64,000 bases of DNA from positions 116,135-180,134 of the IMG/VR virus record IMGVR_UViG_3300023202_000336. One strand, written 5' to 3'. The number at the start of each line of letters is the position of its first letter. Position 1 is the stretch's first letter. Shown one piece after another: positions 2,725 through 63,467 of the stretch. The notes beneath the pieces are model-generated. The model saw only the letters and a program-made list of their open reading frames with translations, was not told the DNA's origin and searched no databases. This DNA is from a virus. The position numbers and the translations under genes are program-made.

Positions 2725-3270
2725 ATGACCAAGCCATTACCCCTTGATGTAACGAAACTTAGGGATTTCGTGATAGAATCAAATACGGTCGAAGGCATCG
2801 TCAGAGACGAGAAAACACTTAAGGAGGAGGTAGAAGCTCACGAGCGACTGCTTCGGTGCAAAAAGGTCGAGGTTCGAGACGTCGTAAGACTCGTGAACAC
2901 AGTGCAGCCGAACGCTCAGTTCAGGGATCATCAAGATATCCCGGGAGTCTGCGTGATAGCGAGGGTGCAGCGTCGGCATCATACCGAGACAGTCGTTATG
3001 TCCGAACCTCCAGAGAGTGGACCGCTCATCAGGGCCCGTCTACAAGACGTGCTCGATAAAGTCGAGAGGATGGAGAACGTTTATACGAATCATCTTCTTT
3101 ATGAAGAGCTTCACCCTTTTACCGACGGGAACGGTCGTTCAGGACGGGCGGTATGGCTATGGCAGATGTTGCGTACTGATATACCGTGGGGTTATCGATT
3201 CGAGCTACCGTTCCTGCAGAAGTGGTACTATGACTCGTTCTCTATGCTCGCTCAGGAGCCTCGTATCTGA
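2725..3270 (+). CDS. Fic/DOC family protein (predicted AMP transferase)
   Basis: Fic proteins transfer AMP or related groups to hydroxyl side chains of target proteins. The catalytic loop HPFTDGNGRSGR (His130 onward) matches the family signature HxFx(D/E)GNGRxxR exactly. Near the N terminus, SNTVEG (19-24) fits the autoinhibitory (S/T)xxxE(G/N) motif, so activity is probably self-restrained (class II layout). I chose the ATG at 2725 because AAGGAG sits just upstream; an in-frame ATG at 2677 would overlap the divergent terminase gene. The last eight codons lie inside a dispersed 31-bp repeat that supplies the stop codon, and this 3' end is duplicated at 3783-3855. The role (toxin, host modification) is inferred. 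Confidence 0.88.
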   Translation: MTKPLPLDVTKLRDFVIESNTVEGIVRDEKTLKEEVEAHERLLRCKKVEVRDVVRLVNTVQPNAQFRDHQDIPGVCVIARVQRRHHTETVVMSEPPESGPLIRARLQDVLDKVERMENVYTNHLLYEELHPFTDGNGRSGRAVWLWQMLRTDIPWGYRFELPFLQKWYYDSFSMLAQEPRI

Positions 3271-3273
3271 GAC
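3243..3273 (+). repeat. Dispersed 31-bp repeat, copy 1 (inside the 3' end of fic)
   Basis: Matches the consensus TATGCTCGCTCAGGAG + CTTCGTATCTGAGAC with one change. It supplies the final codons and TGA stop of the Fic gene. Confidence 0.85.
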
Positions 3274-3782: not shown

Positions 3783-3855
3783 CGAGCTACCGTTCCTGCA
3801 GAAGTGGTACTATGACCCGTTCACTATGCTCGCTCAGGAGCTCCGTATCTGAGAT
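3783..3855 (+). repeat. Duplicate of the 3' end of fic, with repeat copy 2
   Basis: About 73 bases match 3201-3273 (the last ~70 bases of the Fic gene) with only a few substitutions. The copy starts at CGAGCTACCGTTCC and ends in the dispersed repeat (3825-3854). There is no start codon, so it is a gene fragment. A TATAAT at 3894-3899 lies downstream and could serve as a -10 for the next gene, though no convincing -35 is seen. Confidence 0.85.
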
Positions 3856-12092: not shown

Positions 12093-12099
12093 GCAGTTA

Positions 12100-12140
12100 G
12101 AGGGGAGGCAGCATTCGTCTGCCTCCCCTCGTTTTTGTTT
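12100..12140 (+). terminator. Strong rho-independent terminator after the poly-Ubl gene
   Basis: GAGGGGAGGCAG (12100-12111) pairs perfectly with CTGCCTCCCCTC (12119-12130) around a 7-base loop, followed by GTTTTTGTTT. It divides the Ubl operon into two transcription units. Confidence 0.93.
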
Positions 12141-12194
12141 ACCCCATCTCACCACGATCGAGAGATCGAGAGATCGAAAACCATAAGGAGCGTT

Positions 12195-14267
12195 ATGGCC
12201 TCAATCGAGGATACTCTGCAAGGAACGTTCGTTCCTACTCCTCATCAGATCCAGAAGTACAAGTTCGTAGGTGATGATCTCTCCATATACCCGTGCGAAG
12301 GGCTCGAAGAGCGTAGGTTCCTAAGGCTTTTGATGCTCGCTGCAAGATTCTATAGTATTCTCTGTGAGAACGAAGGTAAGACGGCTCTCAATAGAAACAG
12401 GCAGTTGATACAGTCAGAGATTGAAGGATTCTCGCGATCGATCAATAATCTCCGAAGATCAGTTGGAGAGTTAAATCAAAAGAGTTCCGTGAAATTCATG
12501 AAGGAAGTTCAGAAGACTTCTGGATACGTGGAAGCTATGGAAAAGACGATAGGAGAAATAGTAGACCGTGGAGTAGAGAAGTCGTCTCTTTTCGATTTTA
12601 TGACGATCTATAAAGACTTCTACCATATGAGTGTCGGTGACGTTTACGAAGGGGTTTACCCCATTTTCTACGAAGATATCAAAAAAGACAAAAAGTTGGC
12701 AGTTATAGGTAAACCAGAGGCGGAAGTTTTTAATGACAAGATCGTAATACTTACAAAGCCGGCATCTATTAAGCACAATAAGAGAATTATTGACTTCGGA
12801 AACTATTTTATCACGTACTCTTTCCAGGTGTTGAACGATGCTTTACGGTCTGGAAACTCGGCTGCAATTCATAGCGGTTTGCGCCTCTCATCGCCGTCTC
12901 CACGTTACCCAAAAGACGATGACGGGGATAATATACACCCTCACATATCCGGTAACGGTATGTGCACAGGAGAGGCAGGTTACCGTATCTTGAGCTTTCT
13001 CCAGCAGGGCGTACTTTCAGGGGTTTTCCAACTCGTAAACAGCATCCTGAATACACTCGGATCAGGTCCCTACAGAGCGATCAGCGCCTGGGATCCTCGC
13101 CCGTCGTGTGCGGGGTGTGGCGAGATTATCGGTGAAGATGACGAAAGGGTCAATTGTTCTTCGAATGGTGCAGCGCTTCACAAGTCGTGCGCATATGAAG
13201 ACGAGGATGGGAACTTTCACGAACATCGCTTCGTCAAGACTTGTACCTTCTGTTTCAACGAGGGTGTTTTCGATGACAGGACTACGCGTGGAGGCAATGT
13301 CGGATGTCCTCTGTGCATTGAGGAGCTTTCGCGAGTCGAAAATCTCGTCAACGAAGGAAAGTTCCCTTGCCCGAACTGTAATCACGTTCATGAAGGCGAA
13401 GACGCGTTCGATCATAAGATAGAGCTCGGAGAGAAGGACTACGCGTGTACCAGATGTGTGAGCTGGGTCAGAGAGCCCAACGAGGACGGCGTCGGCACCT
13501 GTGAAGTAGAAGGAATAGGTCGCGTCACTACAAGTCGCATGATAACCCAGAGGAGTCGCCGCTCTTTTCCGCGTATTCCGAATATCGTCGTCTGCAGCTG
13601 CGGATCGAGAGTAGCCGAAGAAAATATCAGAAGAGACGATTTCGCAATGTCCAACTGTTGCCAGGTATGCGACCCCGATAATCTCGGAATGTCTCAGTCG
13701 TTCCTTGCGCAGGTGCCTATCATGGAAGCGTGGCTGTGGAACTTTTACGGAACGCATATAGGTGAGATGACGACGCAGTATTGCCGCCTCTATAGTTTCG
13801 TCGGCGAAGACGTTTCTGCCGAACGGGCTGCGAGCGTGGTCAAGAGATTGCGATGCTGGGAGATTAACCTGAGTAGAACCATGTGCTACGTCGATCGCCA
13901 TACCTCTCTGAGAGAGAAGGCCATATTCTGGGAAACCGTTTTAGCCGATACCGGCTTCATCATCCTGACCGCAGACGAGGAAAGCATCCGTATCCATGAC
14001 GAAATCCAAAGATTCCGAACAGAAGACGCGACGCGCGCCGGTAACGCGCCGGAAGGCGTCCTCGAAAGAGAAAGAGAAAGGATCCAGGAAACCCTCCGGC
14101 GGCTCAGAGACTTCTTCTCCGGAAGAAGAGCCGCAAGAGATGAAGAAGGAAGAGAAGAAGAAGGAAGAGAAGAAGACGGAAGAGAAAGAACCGACGAAGA
14201 TCGAGAAGAAATCCGAGCAGGCGAAGCAGGAGTCGTCGAGGCCGTCGATACCGGTGACGGCGCCTGA
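12195..14267 (+). CDS. Large Cys-rich protein with RING/treble-clef-like zinc region (candidate E3-like)
   Basis: 690 aa from the ATG at 12195 (AAGGAG just upstream). Residues 1-300 are helical and unrecognised. From 305 there is a dense zinc region: C305xxC308, C321, H329xxC332 (ALHKSC), C350xxC353, C371PLC374, then C392PNC395 and ACTRC. A second cluster lies around VVCSCG and CCQVC (about 474-495). Two interleaved CxxC...HxxC...CxxC sites are the layout of RING and related treble-clef domains, and RING proteins occur in some prokaryotic ubiquitin operons, so an E3-like or Ubl-binding role is inferred. The C-terminal 90 residues are Arg/Glu-rich and share 272 bases with the next gene in another frame. 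A structural zinc protein without ligase function is equally possible. Confidence 0.6.
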   Translation: MASIEDTLQGTFVPTPHQIQKYKFVGDDLSIYPCEGLEERRFLRLLMLAARFYSILCENEGKTALNRNRQLIQSEIEGFSRSINNLRRSVGELNQKSSVKFMKEVQKTSGYVEAMEKTIGEIVDRGVEKSSLFDFMTIYKDFYHMSVGDVYEGVYPIFYEDIKKDKKLAVIGKPEAEVFNDKIVILTKPASIKHNKRIIDFGNYFITYSFQVLNDALRSGNSAAIHSGLRLSSPSPRYPKDDDGDNIHPHISGNGMCTGEAGYRILSFLQQGVLSGVFQLVNSILNTLGSGPYRAISAWDPRPSCAGCGEIIGEDDERVNCSSNGAALHKSCAYEDEDGNFHEHRFVKTCTFCFNEGVFDDRTTRGGNVGCPLCIEELSRVENLVNEGKFPCPNCNHVHEGEDAFDHKIELGEKDYACTRCVSWVREPNEDGVGTCEVEGIGRVTTSRMITQRSRRSFPRIPNIVVCSCGSRVAEENIRRDDFAMSNCCQVCDPDNLGMSQSFLAQVPIMEAWLWNFYGTHIGEMTTQYCRLYSFVGEDVSAERAASVVKRLRCWEINLSRTMCYVDRHTSLREKAIFWETVLADTGFIILTADEESIRIHDEIQRFRTEDATRAGNAPEGVLERERERIQETLRRLRDFFSGRRAARDEEGREEEGREEDGRERTDEDREEIRAGEAGVVEAVDTGDGA

Positions 14268-27316: not shown

Positions 27317-27460
27317 ATGAAGATGCACCGGACACAGATAAGCCTCCCGCCCGTCCTCTTCGGTTGGCTCAAAGCCGAAGCTGAAAGAAAAGGAATCAGC
27401 ATCGCTGAACTCATTCGCCGCGTCTTGGATCGTGAATATGAAGATCAGCAGAAGCAGTAA
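27317..27460 (+). CDS. Ribbon-helix-helix (CopG/Arc-like) small protein
   Basis: 47 aa reading MKMHRTQISLPPVLFGWL... with a strand (TQISLPP) followed by two helices (LFGWLKAEAERKG and SIAELIRRVLDREYE), the pattern of CopG/Arc repressors. A TTGACA (27282-27287) with a weak -10 lies upstream. Its 3' end overlaps the start of tnpB in another frame, so it probably regulates the element's own expression. Small DNA-binding genes of this type precede tnpB in some IS elements. Confidence 0.65.
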   Translation: MKMHRTQISLPPVLFGWLKAEAERKGISIAELIRRVLDREYEDQQKQ

Positions 27461-28520
27461 GTGCTCCCTCAAGTTTACGACGGCATCAAAACTGTCGAAA
27501 CTGGATGTCGTGCTCACCGAGTACGGTCAGGTGGTCAACCGCTTCATCGACCTGTTCTGGGTTGAGTGCCCAGCCAAGAGCAGGCTACTCAAACCTATCG
27601 TGGATTCGGTTGATAGCTGGTTCACTGCCCGTCTCCGTAAGGTTGCTGCTCGTGAAGCCATCGACATGGTGAAGGCCGCTAAAGAGCGTTGGGGCGAGAA
27701 GGCCGTAAAGCCGACCCACCGTGGACAACGGATGTGCGTCAGTAGCACCATTGCTCGACTGGACGTTGCCAAGGATTCAACCTTCGACTGCTGGCTGCAC
27801 CTATCGTCCATCGGCAATGGCATCATCCTCGACCTGCCGATTAAACGGCACAGGCACTTCAACGATCTGGCTACTGCCGGTCGTAGGCAAGAGTCTTACA
27901 TTATCACCAGGGATTCAGTGCAGTTCTGCTTTGAGATCGAAACTGGGCCGAAACAGGAACCGGATCGCTGTGTCGGTGTTGATACTGGAATCAACGCCTT
28001 AGCCAGTTTGTCCACTGGTGATCAGTTAGGCACTGAAATCAAGGTTGGTATCGAACGAATCAAACGCTGTAAGCACGGAAGCAAAGGTCAGAAGCGAGCC
28101 GTTCGTGCGTTGCGACAGCGGATGGATGAAGTCGCCAAAGAGGTGGTTGGAAAAGCCTCGTTGGTTGCTGTCGAGAACTTGAAGAACATCACGAAGAATA
28201 CCAAACGCCGCTTGGGTAAAAATATGCGGCGCTCTATCGGTCGTTGGAATGTGCGATACTGGTTGACGAGATTGCAGCAAGTCTGTGAACGAAACCGTGT
28301 TTCGTTCCGGTCTGTCTCGCCACGCTACACTTCGCAGCAGTGTTCCAAATGTGGCTTCACCGATAGGAGGAATCGAAACGGTGAGTTGTTCCGTTGCCTC
28401 AGTTGTGGCTATGAGGCAAACGCAGATGTGCAGGCATCACGGAACATCCTCACCCGATTCCTTACCGGACCCTACGGTGCCGGTTGCAAACCTCTCGTGT
28501 CCTGTAATGGGATACTTTGA
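27438..28520 (+). CDS. tnpB: TnpB RNA-guided endonuclease
   Basis: 360 aa; ancestor-type of Cas12. RuvC-I is GVDTGINALASLS (catalytic Asp), RuvC-II is LVAVENLKNIT (Glu), a zinc ribbon CSKCG...CLSCG lies between, and RuvC-III is NADVQASRNIL (Asp). All three catalytic residues are present, so it should be active. It would use an omega RNA from the element's right end to cut DNA and promote element retention. The ATG at 27438 is preferred; a GTG at 27432 is also in frame. It is only weakly similar to the truncated TnpB at 45553, although the element ends match. Confidence 0.88.
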   Translation: MKISRSSKCSLKFTTASKLSKLDVVLTEYGQVVNRFIDLFWVECPAKSRLLKPIVDSVDSWFTARLRKVAAREAIDMVKAAKERWGEKAVKPTHRGQRMCVSSTIARLDVAKDSTFDCWLHLSSIGNGIILDLPIKRHRHFNDLATAGRRQESYIITRDSVQFCFEIETGPKQEPDRCVGVDTGINALASLSTGDQLGTEIKVGIERIKRCKHGSKGQKRAVRALRQRMDEVAKEVVGKASLVAVENLKNITKNTKRRLGKNMRRSIGRWNVRYWLTRLQQVCERNRVSFRSVSPRYTSQQCSKCGFTDRRNRNGELFRCLSCGYEANADVQASRNILTRFLTGPYGAGCKPLVSCNGIL

Positions 28521-43036: not shown

Positions 43037-43534
43037 ATGAGTGAGCTTATATCACTACGGTTGATAATAACTGTACTCGCATTGAGCGCCGGGGCTAGTT
43101 ATGGAGCCTTGACCAGGCATAGCTTCAAAAGTCTTTATGACAAGGTTTATATAGTTTTCGGTCGCGTTTTTTATTCGTTTTTTCCGTTCGCACTTTTGTT
43201 CACAATTGCTGGTGTATTAGTATTGATAAACGCAATACTATTCCTTCCTGAACCTTTCAAGCTGTGTTTTTGTATTTTCCTTGGTTTTCCAGCATACGCG
43301 GTTGGTAATATATCTGCAGCATGGCTTGCCCGAGTTAGTGTAATATCGGTCCAATGTCCGAATCCGACATGCCGGTATATATGTACAAACTGGAGTGCGT
43401 TCAATCCACGGCCGGTAATGAAGTGTAAAAGGTGTCACAGTGAGTTCATGTTTCATATGCTCAAGGACAATATGGTGTACGCCAAGACACTCCAAGACTG
43501 TGCTCGCCGGAGCCTCGTATCTGATGCTCGCTAG
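43037..43534 (+). CDS. Membrane protein with C-terminal zinc ribbon, 165 aa
   Basis: The ATG follows the ATPase stop with no gap. Three hydrophobic stretches (about 5-22, 40-62, 70-95) span the membrane, and the C-terminal part contains CPNPTC...MKCKRC, a CxxxxC/CxxC zinc site facing the cytoplasm. Its 3' end runs into the dispersed repeat, as in fic. Coupling to the BCS1-like gene suggests they act together. Confidence 0.68.
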   Translation: MSELISLRLIITVLALSAGASYGALTRHSFKSLYDKVYIVFGRVFYSFFPFALLFTIAGVLVLINAILFLPEPFKLCFCIFLGFPAYAVGNISAAWLARVSVISVQCPNPTCRYICTNWSAFNPRPVMKCKRCHSEFMFHMLKDNMVYAKTLQDCARRSLVSDAR

Positions 43535-43551
43535 AGCTTCGTATCTGAGAC
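43501..43551 (+). repeat. Dispersed 31-bp repeat, two degenerate copies
   Basis: A shortened copy at 43501-43525 followed directly by a nearly full copy (43524-43551) that lacks two or three bases of the centre. The first supplies the final codons of the preceding gene. Confidence 0.7.
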
Positions 43552-45423: not shown

Positions 45424-45483
45424 TATGCTCGCTCAGGAGCTTCGTATCTGAGACTGCGCGCGCAGGAGCTTCGTATCTGAGAC
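45424..45483 (+). repeat. Dispersed 31-bp repeat, two tandem copies
   Basis: A consensus copy at 45424-45454 and a second with a changed 5' part (GCGCGCGCAGGAG) at 45455-45483. They sit just before a TnpB element remnant. Confidence 0.85.
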
Positions 45484-45552
45484 GTATCTAAGACAAGAGA
45501 GGAGTTTTACCTAGGTATCGAAAAGGTAGAAGGTCGTGGTAGCAGACACACC

Positions 45553-45975
45553 GTGTCGAGAGCCAAGACCGTTGTGATCGAAAATCTGAATGTGCGAGGA
45601 ATGCTGAAGAACCACTGTTTGGCGAGAGCCATCAGCGACATCGGGTTCTACGAGTTCAGACGGCAACTTGAATACAAATGCCAGATGAACGGTGTAGAGC
45701 TAATTATTGCTGATCGGTGGTTCCCGTCCACAAAACTGTGTAGGTTTTGCGGGACAATACATGAGATGTCGTTGTCGGATCGAACCTTCCAGTGTGGCTG
45801 TGGTCATATTGAAGATCGTGATGTCAACGCCGCTAAGAATCTTCGTACTCTCGGCTTGAGAGGAATTGACGCCTGTGGACAGGAAGGCTCTGGTCTTGGT
45901 TTAGATCAAGACGAAACCAGTCTGGATGAAGCAGGAACCCAATCTCTGGTAACTTCTACAAGTTACCACATTTAG
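45553..45975 (+). pseudogene. tnpB: Truncated TnpB (C-terminal part only)
   Basis: The remaining 140 residues start at RuvC-II (TVVIENLNVRG, Glu), then the zinc ribbon CRFCG...CGCGH, and RuvC-III (DVNAAKNL, Asp). RuvC-I with the first catalytic Asp is missing, so it cannot cut DNA alone. The reading frame is still open from a GTG through the right-end hairpin to a TAG, so a short protein could be made, and it might still bind omega RNA. It is a divergent lineage from the intact TnpB at 27438. Confidence 0.82.
45948..45967 (+). ncRNA. Right-end hairpin of the deleted TnpB element (omega RNA terminus)
   Basis: GGTAACTT and AAGTTACC form a perfect 8-bp stem with loop CTAC. Identical to the hairpin at 56703 and paired in the same way as the variant at 28649. 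Confidence 0.6.
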
Positions 45976-47044: not shown

Positions 47045-47092
47045 CGCCGGCATCAGCGGCGCGGCAGCGTCCGCTGCATGCACTTGTCAGCT
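47040..47092 (+). other. Integron attC-like recombination site 1
   Basis: Starts GCTAAC over the stop codon and ends CACTTGTCAG. Shares ATCAGCGGCGCGGCAGCG + TCCGCTGCATGCACTTG with site 2. The core folds by GCAGCG/CGCTGC pairing. The right simple site reads GTCAG rather than GTTAG, so it may be damaged. Confidence 0.6.
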
Positions 47093-47546: not shown

Positions 47547-47596
47547 CGCACCAAAATCAGCGGCGCGGCAGCGTCCGCTGCATGCACTTGTTAGAA
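47542..47596 (+). other. Integron attC-like recombination site 2
   Basis: GCTAAC at the left (over the stop codon of the methyltransferase) and GTTAG at 47590-47594 are complementary end boxes, as in attC. The interior is nearly identical to site 1. An insertion of one cassette (methyltransferase plus site) between the two is the simplest reading. Confidence 0.68.
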
Positions 47597-48203: not shown

Positions 48204-48268
48204 AACACCACTACAACTACGACGGCGCCTATGCCCGCTCAGAGGCTTCGTATCTGAGACGTACCTGA
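48200..48268 (+). CDS. Possible 22-residue peptide ending in the dispersed repeat
   Basis: ATGA overlap with the previous gene. Begins MKHHYNYDG, echoing the MKHHH start of its neighbour (a short duplication), and ends ARSEASYLRRT, coded by the repeat. Probably a remnant. Confidence 0.35.
   Translation: MKHHYNYDGAYARSEASYLRRT
48230..48260 (+). repeat. Dispersed 31-bp repeat copy
   Basis: TATGCCCGCTCAGAGG + CTTCGTATCTGAGAC, followed by a second partial GTACCTGAAAC. Lies between the tiny genes and the ribosome binding site of the winged-helix gene. Confidence 0.82.
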
Positions 48269-48295
48269 AACCATACCACGAAAGGAGGAGGGCAA

Positions 48296-49000: not shown

Positions 49001-49018
49001 CTGAGACGTATCTGAAAC
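49001..49018 (+). repeat. Partial dispersed repeat
   Basis: CTGAGACGTATCTGAAAC matches the 3' half plus the frequent extension GTATCTGAAAC. It lies just upstream of the MazG-like gene's ribosome binding site. Confidence 0.6.
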
Positions 49019-49529: not shown

Positions 49530-49624
49530 AGGCTCAAATTTGAACGATCTTTTCCGGCGGTACCAGCGCACATATTAAAGGAGATCGTTTAATCTCGAGC
49601 CAGAAAACCGGATTCCTGGCGGTT

Positions 49625-49643
49625 TGAGCTTCGTATCTGAGAC
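49625..49643 (+). repeat. Dispersed repeat, 3' half only
   Basis: TGAGCTTCGTATCTGAGAC lacks the TATGCTCGC half. Confidence 0.7.
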
Positions 49644-49666
49644 GGTTATAACAGCTATGGCTGGCC

Positions 49667-49697
49667 TATGCTCGCTCAGGAGCTTCGTATCTGAGAC
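49667..49697 (+). repeat. Dispersed 31-bp repeat, consensus copy
   Basis: Exact match to TATGCTCGCTCAGGAG + CTTCGTATCTGAGAC. Confidence 0.9.
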
Positions 49698-49717
49698 CAC
49701 GGCAGCACCATTTCGAT

Positions 49718-49748
49718 TATGTTCGCTCAGGAGCTTCGTATCTGAGAC
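49718..49748 (+). repeat. Dispersed 31-bp repeat copy
   Basis: One difference from consensus (TATGTTCG). Followed by ACAGACAGACAGACGAGACGAC. Confidence 0.9.
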
Positions 49749-49864
49749 AGACAGACAGACGAGACGACGGGGGTGGCGGTCGGAACTCTTTTCTTTTTTC
49801 TTTTTTTTTTCTTTTTTCTTTTCTCTACGAGCGTTCACGAAATGAGATACGATCGTAAACGAAT

Positions 49865-49980
49865 GAAACCTCGCATCCGAATGAAACCTCGCATCCGAAG
49901 AAAAACCCCGGTCGCGAATCGCAAACTAAGGAAACCTCGCATCCGTTCGTGAGCAAGTCGCAGGCAAAGGAAACCTCGCG
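49865..49980 (+). repeat. Iteron-like direct repeats
   Basis: GAAACCTCGCATCCG at 49865-49879, 49883-49897 and 49931-49945, with a shortened GAAACCTCGCG at 49970. The spacing is irregular (18, 48, 39 bases). Possible protein-binding sites. Confidence 0.75.
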
Positions 49981-50245
49981 CACGACGGACACGAACGTAT
50001 CTCTCGTATCTATTAAAAAAATAATCTATCGTATCTACGTAGTAGATACTCTCTCGAAGTCTGCACGGTAATCAATATTGACCCATACCTTACAGTCAGT
50101 TTTGACCTACGTTTTTGACCTTACTTAACGAGCGTTTACGAACGGGTGTGAGATCGTTCGTATACGAATGAAATTTGTGAACGCGCGGACAAAATTGATA
50201 AAATCCGCCGAAACTTACCATTATCCGCCAACGAAAGGGCCGCTC

Positions 50246-50860
50246 ATGGATCCAGTCCAGTTCCATAGAATTCTTCGACTTCAAACTGAAGCGTTTCTTT
50301 ACGCGATGATGTTTCGTGGTTACATTGATGTTGATTCGCAGCGATTTACGCATCTTGCTCCGACGGTGAATAAGATCCGCGGAATGACCGCTGAAGAGTG
50401 GGCGATGACCGTTGCAGATCTTACTGTTTCGGCCAACCCAGACATACCGTTCGCACCAGAACCGCTCTGGCTCGATGAATACGACCCGTCCTACATCGAT
50501 CACGGTATCCACCACTGTGTTTTACATGTTCCCGAATATGGGCGTTATTACGATCCTACCTGTCTCGAAGGGATCGAGGATATCGATTATCTTGCGATCG
50601 ACCCGACTCCCGACGCGAAGTATATACCCCTCATCGTACCGGCGGAATCTAAGTCCACACGGGTTCCGTTCCTTGCAACGAAGCGGGTTACCGATGAACC
50701 GCTCGATGACGAGGATGACGAGGAAGAGCGGCCCGGTGTCTTCGATGACGTGGAAAAGCGGGAAACCGGTTCGGCGCGTCACCAGCCGGCTGAAGTGGAA
50801 ATCGAAGACTTCGTGAGAGAGATCGAAGAAGCACCTTCGGGTGGCGAAGTCTCAATCTGA
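50246..50860 (+). CDS. Hypothetical protein, 204 aa
   Basis: The ATG at 50246 has GAAAGGG at proper spacing, the usual site in this genome. An upstream ATG at 50168 (adding 26 residues) has none. The body is mixed alpha/beta (EWAMTVADLTVSANP; YDPSYIDHGIHHCVLH) and the C-terminal 60 residues are acidic and disordered (DDEDDEEERPG). No family recognised. First gene after the candidate control region, so perhaps early-expressed. Confidence 0.6.
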   Translation: MDPVQFHRILRLQTEAFLYAMMFRGYIDVDSQRFTHLAPTVNKIRGMTAEEWAMTVADLTVSANPDIPFAPEPLWLDEYDPSYIDHGIHHCVLHVPEYGRYYDPTCLEGIEDIDYLAIDPTPDAKYIPLIVPAESKSTRVPFLATKRVTDEPLDDEDDEEERPGVFDDVEKRETGSARHQPAEVEIEDFVREIEEAPSGGEVSI

Positions 50861-50869
50861 AAGGACCAG

Positions 50870-51655
50870 ATGACATCAAAAGCCCCTCCGACTGAGGATT
50901 CCAGCGTCGACGCCGACATCGAGAAGGGACCTGAACTAATTTCTGTAAAGCATGATCTCGATATTTCGTGTTTCCTTGAACTTCTCAAGGACAGTGCCCC
51001 TAAAGATATGATTAAGATATACGCGAAGAAAGCTCGCGGTGAAGACTTTATGATTCCTCGTTGGTGTACGCCGGTTACAAGACCTGTTCTGGTAGAGACG
51101 GCCGAACGAATTTTCGGATGTATGGATCCTGTTAACCGCGAAAGTATGAACCGGCTTATTGCAGGGCCAGGGTCGGAGTCCGTCGAACAGTTGAGACGAA
51201 ATGTAGCTTCGTTCATGAATACCTACATGCCTCCGAGTGTGATAACCGATCTTACGCGCCGATTTTTCGACTGCCCGTTGAGCTACATTAAGATGGACTC
51301 TATTTCTGTCCATAACGTCGAGGTAAGTGAGTGTGTTACTACCCGCGTACGGTGGATGAGTCTTCCAGAGATCACGTTACGTTATTACGGTGAAATCTAT
51401 CTCGATGACGAAAACGGGGATTGTCTTCCGCCCGAAGAACTTGGAGATCCTCAGTTCGATGGGAAGTTTCATTTTAATAGCTTTTTACAAAACCTTGAAA
51501 CCTATGTAAGCAACTTTCCGACGACGCTTTTACCTTTTGTGGTATTCTACATCTCAGAGCTTGTTCACATGGTGAGCCTGCCCGAGCTCGGATCACCGAT
51601 TAGCATCATGAAAGATACGCCTTCACTTTCGTATACTATTGTCGAGGAGGAATAA
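50870..51655 (+). CDS. Hypothetical protein, 261 aa
   Basis: ATG with GAAAGGACC upstream, 9 bases after the previous gene, so co-transcribed. Mostly helical with a strand-rich centre (TRVRWMSLPEITLRYYGEIYLDDENG). No motif recognised. Confidence 0.62.
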   Translation: MTSKAPPTEDSSVDADIEKGPELISVKHDLDISCFLELLKDSAPKDMIKIYAKKARGEDFMIPRWCTPVTRPVLVETAERIFGCMDPVNRESMNRLIAGPGSESVEQLRRNVASFMNTYMPPSVITDLTRRFFDCPLSYIKMDSISVHNVEVSECVTTRVRWMSLPEITLRYYGEIYLDDENGDCLPPEELGDPQFDGKFHFNSFLQNLETYVSNFPTTLLPFVVFYISELVHMVSLPELGSPISIMKDTPSLSYTIVEEE

Positions 51656-51674
51656 GTAATAGGCTCTGACGATC

Positions 51675-51784
51675 CGTCCGTATCTGAGACGTGGATACGA
51701 GTTGATACAGGGAAAAGAAGTCCCTGCGTGGAGCGGTCTCACGCTCGAAGAACTCGTCGACGAACTCATCGGTAAGGCTAATTA
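51675..51784 (+). pseudogene. Short gene remnant behind a partial repeat
   Basis: After a partial dispersed repeat (51675-51690) an open frame codes for YLRRGYELIQGKEVPAWSGL and then TLEELVDELIGKAN before a TAG at 51782-51784. It has no good start or binding site (only a TTG), so it looks like the tail of a lost gene, ending in an amphipathic helix. Confidence 0.35.
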
Positions 51785-51793
51785 GTGTGGTCG

Positions 51794-52204
51794 TTACTTC
51801 GGCGACGGAGTGCCGTACTCGACCCTTTGTTCCAGCATGAACCGGCCGATTTCGGACTCTTTTACCCTGGTTGGCATCGGGCGGTTCATGCGAGCATGGT
51901 CCTCTTCGCTTACGAGCCCAATCTTTCTCGCTGGGATAATTACGAATCGTTCGATCATTTCGAGTTTGGCCCGGTAGACCTCTATTTTGATATCATGTTC
52001 TTTCGTGGTCCCGTAGAGTGCTTTCCGATCGGCTTTGAGGTCCTCGATGCTTTCGATGATCTCTTGCTGTCGGTCGTAGACCTGTATCGATTTCATGACG
52101 ACGAGGGCAATACCGCCTATTACCGCGGCCCAGCCAAACTTCGAGACGACCCAGTTGAAGACCTTCTGGGTAAGCTGCGTCGGGGTATCGGTCTGGCCGG
52201 CCAT
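51794..52204 (-). CDS. Single-pass membrane protein with coiled coil, minus strand, 136 aa
   Basis: Minus-strand frame with a short polar N terminus (AGQTDTPTQLTQKVFNWVV), one membrane helix (WAAVIGGIALVVMKSI, about 23-40) and then a Glu/Lys/Gln/Ile coiled coil and basic tail. This is the composition of a real membrane-anchored coil. The overlapping plus-strand frame (51785-52237) is Phe/Asp-rich in the way the reverse complement of coils always is, so I reject that one. The start at 52204 avoids overlapping the next gene; a longer form from 52258 is possible. Such proteins include holin/spanin-like or phage lysis accessory proteins (inference). Confidence 0.55.
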   Translation of the reverse strand: MAGQTDTPTQLTQKVFNWVVSKFGWAAVIGGIALVVMKSIQVYDRQQEIIESIEDLKADRKALYGTTKEHDIKIEVYRAKLEMIERFVIIPARKIGLVSEEDHARMNRPMPTRVKESEIGRFMLEQRVEYGTPSPK

Positions 52205-52670: not shown

Positions 52671-52701
52671 TATCCTTGCTCAGGAGTTTCGTATCTAAGA
52701 C
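52671..52701 (+). repeat. Dispersed 31-bp repeat copy
   Basis: TATCCTTGCTCAGGAG + TTTCGTATCTAAGAC, followed by GTATCAG. Located before the ribosome binding site of the kinase gene. Confidence 0.8.
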
Positions 52702-52739
52702 GTATCAGAAAATCTGAAACACAACTGAAAGGAAACGTT

Positions 52740-53423: not shown

Positions 53424-53930
53424 TTGCATGAGCTTACACCGAATGACCTCATTTATCCTCATGTGAGGGCTGAGGTGATACGCCAGTTGAAAGATGTATA
53501 TTCTGGTCGCGATTTTATAAAGCTCTGGCAGGAGGTATCATACGGTGACTATAGGGGTTTAAGAGACTTATTTTATAATCCTTTCAGTAAGAAGATGAAG
53601 AGGAAGTGCGTTGCGCTATTACAGGAGGGCGATGTAATTCAGTTGAATTCGTTAGGCGGCTTTCCTGGTTGGGTATCTGACTTCAATAACTATCACGGTA
53701 AACTCGCGGTCATTACCGCTTTGTACAAGATTCCGGTGGCTAATATAAGATTCCTAGACGATTGCGAATTTATCAGCGATAAAGGCTATTTAGTTCCTTT
53801 GGGAGCGTGTGTTCCGTTAAAAGCCGTTGTTTATGCTCGCTCAGGAGCTCCGCGTCTGAGACACCGTATAAAATCGAAGGGAGGTGTACCTTGGCTGAAG
53901 AAGTGGATCAAAAAGATCGCAAGATTATAG
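53424..53930 (+). CDS. Hypothetical protein of an F(V/I)KxW paralog family, 168 aa
   Basis: TTG start; no clear ribosome binding site, so the start is uncertain. Contains SGRDFIKLWQEVSYG (about 29-43), like motifs in four neighbouring small proteins. Residues 134-142 are coded by a dispersed repeat, after which the frame continues 24 codons, overlapping the next gene's start. So the natural stop was probably lost when the repeat arrived, or the repeat was captured. Confidence 0.5.
   Translation: MHELTPNDLIYPHVRAEVIRQLKDVYSGRDFIKLWQEVSYGDYRGLRDLFYNPFSKKMKRKCVALLQEGDVIQLNSLGGFPGWVSDFNNYHGKLAVITALYKIPVANIRFLDDCEFISDKGYLVPLGACVPLKAVVYARSGAPRLRHRIKSKGGVPWLKKWIKKIARL
53832..53862 (+). repeat. Dispersed 31-bp repeat copy, inside a coding frame
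   Basis: TATGCTCGCTCAGGAG + CTCCGCGTCTGAGAC. In the preceding gene's frame it codes for YARSGAPRLRH. Confidence 0.85.
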
Positions 53931-56764: not shown

Positions 56765-56795
56765 TATTCTCGCTCAGGAGCTCCGTATCTGAGAC
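56765..56795 (+). repeat. Dispersed 31-bp repeat copy
   Basis: TATTCTCGCTCAGGAG + CTCCGTATCTGAGAC followed by GTATCTGAAAC. Confidence 0.85.
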
Positions 56796-56807
56796 GTATC
56801 TGAAACG

Positions 56808-56852: not shown

Positions 56853-56880
56853 GGCTCAGAAACTGGCGTTCGTCGATTGC

Positions 56881-56907
56881 GCGAGCTCAGAGCTTCGTAT
56901 CTAAGAC
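56881..56907 (+). repeat. Dispersed repeat copy, degenerate
   Basis: GCGAGCTCAGAG + CTTCGTATCTAAGAC, immediately before the next gene's AGAAAGGA site. Confidence 0.72.
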
Positions 56908-58282: not shown

Positions 58283-58313
58283 TATTTTCGTTCAAGAGTT
58301 TCGTATCTGAGAC
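58283..58313 (+). repeat. Dispersed 31-bp repeat copy
   Basis: TATTTTCGTTCAAGAG + TTTCGTATCTGAGAC, the most divergent full-length copy. Confidence 0.75.
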
Positions 58314-63423: not shown

Positions 63424-63467
63424 AATGTCCGCTCAGAGGCTTCGTATTTCAGACTCGTATCTGAGAC
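63424..63467 (+). repeat. Dispersed repeat, one copy plus a half
   Basis: AATGTCCGCTCAGAGG + CTTCGTATTTCAGAC, followed by TCGTATCTGAGAC. Confidence 0.75.

Follow-up and report, generated by a model that had tools for sequence, protein, structure and literature searches.

Type V-M CRISPR repeats in the gene leaders of a phage with its own Cas12m suggest that a CRISPR protein controls viral genes

A gap of 716 bp (49530–50245) is the longest noncoding stretch in the DNA analysed here, the last 64 kb (record 116135–180134) of a linear phage record of 180,134 bp from IMG/VR (IMGVR_UViG_3300023202_000336, here G000). We call these 64,000 nucleotides (nt) the window and give window positions unless a record or contig is named. 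All the records compared are metagenomic and possibly incomplete, and the gene calls are our own, made by codon usage. The window carries a terminase gene and many small + strand genes, and 7.9% of it is noncoding. The gap is flanked by a MazG/PRA-PH-like gene and an orphan open reading frame (ORF, 50246–50860), for which no relatives were found. The initial annotation had singled it out as the only long gap and this holds, the nominally longer noncoding call at 12093–13061 being an artefact that covers a long ORF.

As a joint statement, with its inferred steps worded as such below, we lean towards a compound gap, which has a mini-array of type V-M clustered regularly interspaced short palindromic repeats (CRISPR) on the left and a control region on the right. 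The left part (49613–49748) is the most informative section, although the initial annotation had overlooked it. It is a type V-M CRISPR mini-array with three copies of (TATGCTCGCTCAG)GAGCTTCGTATCTGAGAC on the + strand. The repeat is 31 nt long, TATGCTCGCTCAGGAGCTTCGTATCTGAGAC, and is present in one half copy and two full copies.

The first copy (49613–49643) retains only its 3′ half (49626–49643). The second (49662–49697, 31-nt core 49667–49697; 36.3 bits, E 1.3e-6) and the third (49713–49748, 31-nt core 49718–49748; 32.3 bits, E 1.3e-5) both have the full pseudoknot with 9/9 pairs. Given a 36-nt repeat, the spacer-like stretches on the same strand are 18 nt (GGTTATAACAGCTATGGC, 49644–49661) and 15 nt (CACGGCAGCACCATT, 49698–49712) long. 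No target was found for the former in the phage's own genome, IMG/VR or 50,697 phage records, nor for the latter in the own genome or the same phage records. Rfam gave no match in the gap.

The fold of the repeat was examined with 12 repeat representatives from this phage, other phage contigs and plasmids, aligned without gaps over 36 nt. They have a common H-type pseudoknot, in which GCC (−28 to −26) pairs with GGC (−17 to −15), and positions −23 to −18 pair with −8 to −3. In the 12 families, 108 of the 108 cells are paired and 9/9 pairs are changed on both sides. The covariation is 0.83, compared with 0.21 in shuffled and at most 0.13 in slid controls.

In the published Cas12m2 CRISPR RNA (crRNA), C(−22)–C(−17) pair with G(−8)–G(−3) (PMC10442227). 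The pseudoknot of the phage has the same topology, with its stem positions shifted by one nucleotide. Judged by its sequence, the phage repeat is a type V-M CRISPR repeat and carries a predicted V-M pseudoknot. We hold the identity of the repeats as type V-M CRISPR repeats to be nearly certain.

The phage encodes a full-length Cas12m, and the cas12m gene and the main array lie together at record 107825–110230. The 574-amino-acid product matches the PADLOC Cas12u1 profile over residues 29–565 (E 1.5e-81) and, in PDB, Cas12m 23vw (E 6e-47) and Cas12m2 (E 1e-24), while a profile of 11 relatives matches 23vw with an E of 5e-137. Its AlphaFold model (pLDDT 81, pTM 0.54) is best matched by Cas12m2 8hhl and Cas12m 8pm4 (TM 0.79 each), above all other Cas12. 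The RuvC triad reads D-E-D in the alignment and fits the known Cas12m triad types D-E-D, H-D-D and N-D-D. Cas12m is also encoded on eleven further IMG/VR contigs, most of them with recognisable adjoining arrays.

The main array begins about 100 nt downstream of cas12m and holds nine exact repeats at record 109651–110199, the array extending to 110229. With the 36-nt repeat, its spacers fall into two size classes of 18–20 and 33–35 nt. Some of them are near-duplicates (stretch L010 9652–10230, equal to record 109651–110229), namely the first and sixth, and the fifth and ninth share 11 nt. The two size classes and the near-duplicates suggest that the array grew by recombination rather than by acquisition. 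A search for cas1 found none. The mini-array at 49613–49748 belongs to this Cas12m system, the phage's own.

Just past the main array (L010 10250–11459), two small genes next to each other both contain the motif LEGALAIKEKI and resemble a gene duplication, and one of them has a weak DUF7934 match. A TnpB-type omega-RNA was considered as well, because TnpB-like genes are present, and was rejected, as type V-M agrees with the Cas12m match over the full length, with the array next to it and with a repeat of 36 nt. A TnpB-like gene of 362 amino acids (27432–28520) is distinct from Cas12m and has profile matches to the TnpB and Cas12f families.

The repeat is not confined to the arrays. Its 16-nt core is found 31 times on the + strand of the record and 0 times on the − strand with up to 2 mismatches, and 20 times in the window with up to 3 mismatches against 0.8 expected. 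The non-array units number about 20. Among 21 examined, 16 have at least five of the six pairs of stem 2, the main stem, compared with 4% of random 5′ halves. The dispersed units are confined to three zones of the record, 1.3–3 kb, 107.7–112.7 kb and 119–180 kb, and the core scan found none between these zones.

The dispersed copies are mainly noncoding (13 of the 15 in the window, where random placement gives a mean of 1.2 and a maximum of 6 in 20,000 trials). Most are 14–140 nt upstream of a same-strand ORF, and they often occupy the gap that separates the stop codon of one gene from the start of the following one. The cas12m gene is itself preceded by two copies, 82 and 47 nt ahead of its start. 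Conservation ends at both repeat borders. Most dispersed copies form a subfamily of their own, GCTC...GGAGC as against the array form GCCC...AGGC, and the differing pair is compensated (GCU/AGC versus GCC/GGC).

Within the window, all on the + strand, copies stand upstream of ORFs 3415 (3243–3273), 3942 (3825–3855), 58365 (58283–58313) and 63526 (63424–63454). One of the array subfamily (48230–48260) is 35 nt upstream of ORF 48296, another copy (52671–52701) is 38 nt upstream of the P-loop kinase-like ORF 52740, and the copy at 53832–53862, inside the end of the preceding ORF call, is 28 nt upstream of ORF 53891. Two copies (45424–45483) precede a TnpB remnant, a truncated TnpB C-terminus at 45553–45975. 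ORF 56922 has a copy at 56765–56795 and a degenerate one at 56877–56907, the latter 14 nt upstream with a ribosome-binding site directly behind it. Also degenerate is the copy (43521–43551) upstream of the AAA ATPase ORF 43623. An unrelated direct repeat of 39 nt, 97% identical, is located upstream of two ORFs at 47052–47090 and 47556–47594.

The phage contigs G001 and G013 are an independent second case of leader scaffolds. G001 (87 kb) is only distantly related to the phage studied here (terminase 34%) and has about 20 scaffolds with varied stems, some clustered and some dispersed. Cas12m was not found on the G001 contig. G013 (82.7 kb) is related to G001 and encodes a Cas12m of 663 amino acids (E 1e-61) at G013 49810–51801 (L072 6811–8802), the triad of which reads H-D-D. 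No CRISPR array is present on the G013 contig, which has dispersed scaffolds only.

On G013, same-strand scaffolds in short gaps are 11, 27 and 45 nt ahead of ORFs, and at G013 55404 the ribosome-binding site AGGGAGG lies directly behind a scaffold. One scaffold on G001, 16 nt ahead of an ORF, is arranged as in G013. A noncoding stretch of G001 (L016 1–1000, minus strand) contains about 12 V-M-like pseudoknots, the stems of which are not alike and mostly covary. The single Rfam match in this cluster is sub-threshold and was dismissed as chance.

In another phage with a V-M array, G009, there is one leader copy with a compensated stem. The first spacer of its array (L060 11722–11741) matches an HNH gene of Virus Rctr197k in 19 of its first 20 nt, but the match does not extend beyond nt 20 and lacks a TTN protospacer-adjacent motif, so it was kept as a lead only. 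The IMG/VR contigs obtained with a two-unit core pattern were set aside, being mostly chance matches in coding DNA.

The scaffolds in gene leaders suggest that the phage regulates genes of its own by means of a CRISPR protein. From the dispersed scaffolds in leaders and the phage-encoded Cas12m, we infer putative binding or cutting sites of Cas12m in messenger RNA (mRNA) leaders. Guided DNA binding without cleavage and self-processing of precursor crRNA (pre-crRNA) are known for other Cas12m proteins (PMC11013384, PMC10442227), and Cas12m cleaves its own pre-crRNA inside the repeat independently of RuvC (PMC11013384). In a transcribed leader, the pseudoknot would be bound by Cas12m like a pre-crRNA and probably cut on its 5′ side. 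The next 15–20 nt, in some cases with the ribosome-binding site, would fill the guide channel. Cas12m would thus process the mRNA and dampen its translation.

Cas12m would be divided between the array crRNAs and the leader RNAs, and it would tune its own translation too by way of the cas12m leader copies. We take an RNA-level action of the repeats through Cas12m as a serious possibility that falls somewhat short of an even chance. More tentative is the full proposal, a phage-wide post-transcriptional regulon in which the Cas12m of the phage would bind and cut the crRNA scaffolds in the leaders of many phage genes, setting the translation of these genes and its own level.

Several observations weigh against this proposal. 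At least five dispersed copies retain chiefly the 3′ half, for which no folding is expected. Among the dispersed copies of this phage, the single changes that disrupt the stem are nearly as frequent as those that preserve it. The 3′ 11-mer GTATCTGARAC also occurs in tandem on its own, of which a crRNA scaffold gives no account. In G001 and G013, some copies are solitary genes that run antisense to the neighbour and have promoters of their own, and a single mechanism may therefore not account for every copy. Furthermore, the next start codon lies 497 nt beyond the mini-array, a much greater distance than is typical of a leader element. The mini-array is an outlier, and may instead be an ordinary small array or an end-of-operon unit. 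The 11-mer is repeated in 11-bp tandem steps at 45473–45494, 48250–48271, 52691–52712 and 56785–56806, and a solitary one at 49008–49018 lies ahead of the 49044 gene.

Alternatively, the dispersed repeats would be guide-RNA units that aim Cas12m at the DNA of rival phages or the host, or at the phage's own promoters in a CreR-like manner, and the mini-array would be a second small array. The repeat with its following 17–20 nt would make such a unit; Cas12m2 works with about 17 nt of guide, in a duplex of 17 bp (PMC10442227). The spacing in the mini-array is 51–54 nt, compared with 54–56 nt in the short-spacer class of the main array. The cas12m gene itself is behind two copies. Some other scaffolds of G001 and G013, apart from those in short leader gaps, are immediately preceded by a conserved promoter of the sigma-70 type (TTGACC/T-16-TACAGT/TATAGT), as for a solitary RNA gene that starts at the scaffold.

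However, targets for such guides are wanting. Seed matches of at least 10 nt to the own genome number 16 against 10.7 for shuffled guides, which is the chance level, and no CreR-like target with a seed match of at least 10 nt is present near cas12m. Nine spacers searched against the 50,697 phage records gave no target, and the first spacer of the mini-array has none in IMG/VR. In many leaders, moreover, the would-be guide is the leader and the ribosome-binding site of the next gene. We consider guide units of this kind unlikely.

Still less probable is that the dispersed repeats serve as decoys, that is, RNA anti-CRISPRs (Racr) titrating a V-M effector of the host or a competing phage. Viral genomes are known to harbour solitary repeat units (PMC10651486), and plasmids and prophages to carry type V-M systems (PMC11656645). 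Such decoys would, however, also disable the own Cas12m of the phage and of G013, and the repeat pattern of the phage has no exact match in the genomes of 84,980 bacterial and archaeal species. The copies in the phage are also without promoters of their own, as no conserved promoter-like block was found upstream of the dispersed copies and own promoters are not above chance.

The Racr units are described as standing alone, apart from cas genes, and frequently follow a promoter (PMC10651486). The dispersed copies resemble them as single CRISPR repeats in noncoding phage DNA, whereas the site in the gap is a mini-array. They differ from Racr in that the phage has the matching effector and array and about 20 leader copies. 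The upstream promoter of the Racr type was not found in the phage, but it is present at copies of G001 and G013.

The least probable reading takes the dispersed 31-bp element as a DNA promoter or operator with which the CRISPR array merely has common sequence. In its favour are the frequent location of the element in the space from one stop codon to the following start and the multiplication of its 3′ half in 11-bp steps. However, the element has the V-M pseudoknot together with those positions that are conserved among V-M repeats from unrelated phages and plasmids. No single-subunit phage RNA polymerase (PF00940) was found, in a search where control genomes gave no match either.

The right part of the gap (49780–50245) contains the features for which the initial annotation had proposed an origin or control region. 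The pyrimidine-only tract (49786–49826, + strand) has 41 nt and is the longest in the window, the next longest pyrimidine run being 13 nt. The iteron-like repeat GAAACCTCGCATCCG is exact at 49865, 49883 and 49931 and degenerate at 49970, and the cluster of four on the + strand (49865–49984) is the only place in the 180-kb record with the iteron 10-mer GAAACCTCGC. The palindrome GTATCTAC-GTA-GTAGATAC, an inverted repeat at 50031–50049 (RNA z = −2.2), lies within A+T-rich DNA (49991–50130, 36% GC). The TTGACC boxes are indeed three within 43 bp on the + strand (50078, 50102 and 50115; 50078–50120), but the motif itself is ordinary, with 66 in the record.

In addition, nested inverted repeats make a long hairpin CGAGCGTTTACGAAC...TTTGTGAACGCGCG at 50129–50187 (z −2.2). 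A sigma-70-like promoter TTGTGA-18-TAAAAT (50175–50204, + strand), one of 2 found against 0.9 expected, precedes ORF 50246–50860. A control region is plausible from the promoter-like site, the hairpin and the iterons. Whether the right part is the promoter/operator and leader region of the operon starting at 50246 appears evenly balanced to us.

An iteron-type replication origin would agree with the four iterons unique to this spot, the A+T-rich noncoding stretch, the palindromes and the 41-nt pyrimidine tract. However, the GC skew, which the initial annotation had named as a check, is positive along all 180 kb, without a switch near 165.7 kb or anywhere else. The adjoining genes, PRA-PH/MazG-like and the orphan ORF, include no initiator gene, and the polymerase-like and helicase-like ORFs are 25–30 kb distant. 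With neither a skew switch nor an adjacent initiator gene, the origin is unsupported and we judge it improbable.

Virus-borne type V-M systems and solitary repeats are already known separately. The system described here is like type V-M (formerly V-U1) CRISPR-Cas12m in having a full-length Cas12m with a Cas12m2-like predicted fold and a D-E-D RuvC, 36-nt pseudoknot repeats, an array beside cas12m and no cas1. It is unlike them in that the repeat is also in about 20 gene leaders, and that the array has both short and normal spacers with near-duplicates. The closest GenBank phage, Virus Rctr197k (KX853510), has a phage-borne Cas12m, 30% identical, and an adjoining V-M array, but differs in that one solitary repeat was found outside its array.

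The dispersed repeats also resemble the CreR/CreA elements, which are crRNA-like, located near cas genes and make a CRISPR effector a regulator (PMC12737573). CreR directs the effector to a promoter that it matches in part, whereas the phage is without such a match and has its elements in many unrelated leaders. The mini-arrays of the archaeal viruses SPV1 and SPV2 are virus-borne with one or two spacers, as at 49613–49748. They rely on the Cas proteins of the host and have matches in related viruses (PMC11656645), whereas here the effector is the phage's own.

We found no report of a phage that combines a Cas12m of its own with about 20 leader copies of the repeat, and none of a phage contig on which Cas12m occurs together with solitary scaffolds but without an array. 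If the proposal is true, Cas12m would be a case of a CRISPR effector without DNA cleavage that serves as an RNA-binding gene regulator within a virus. In the G013 group, leader regulation would be the only visible use of Cas12m, as the G013 contig is without an array. Leader regulation may be a reason for phages to carry Cas12m without spacer acquisition.
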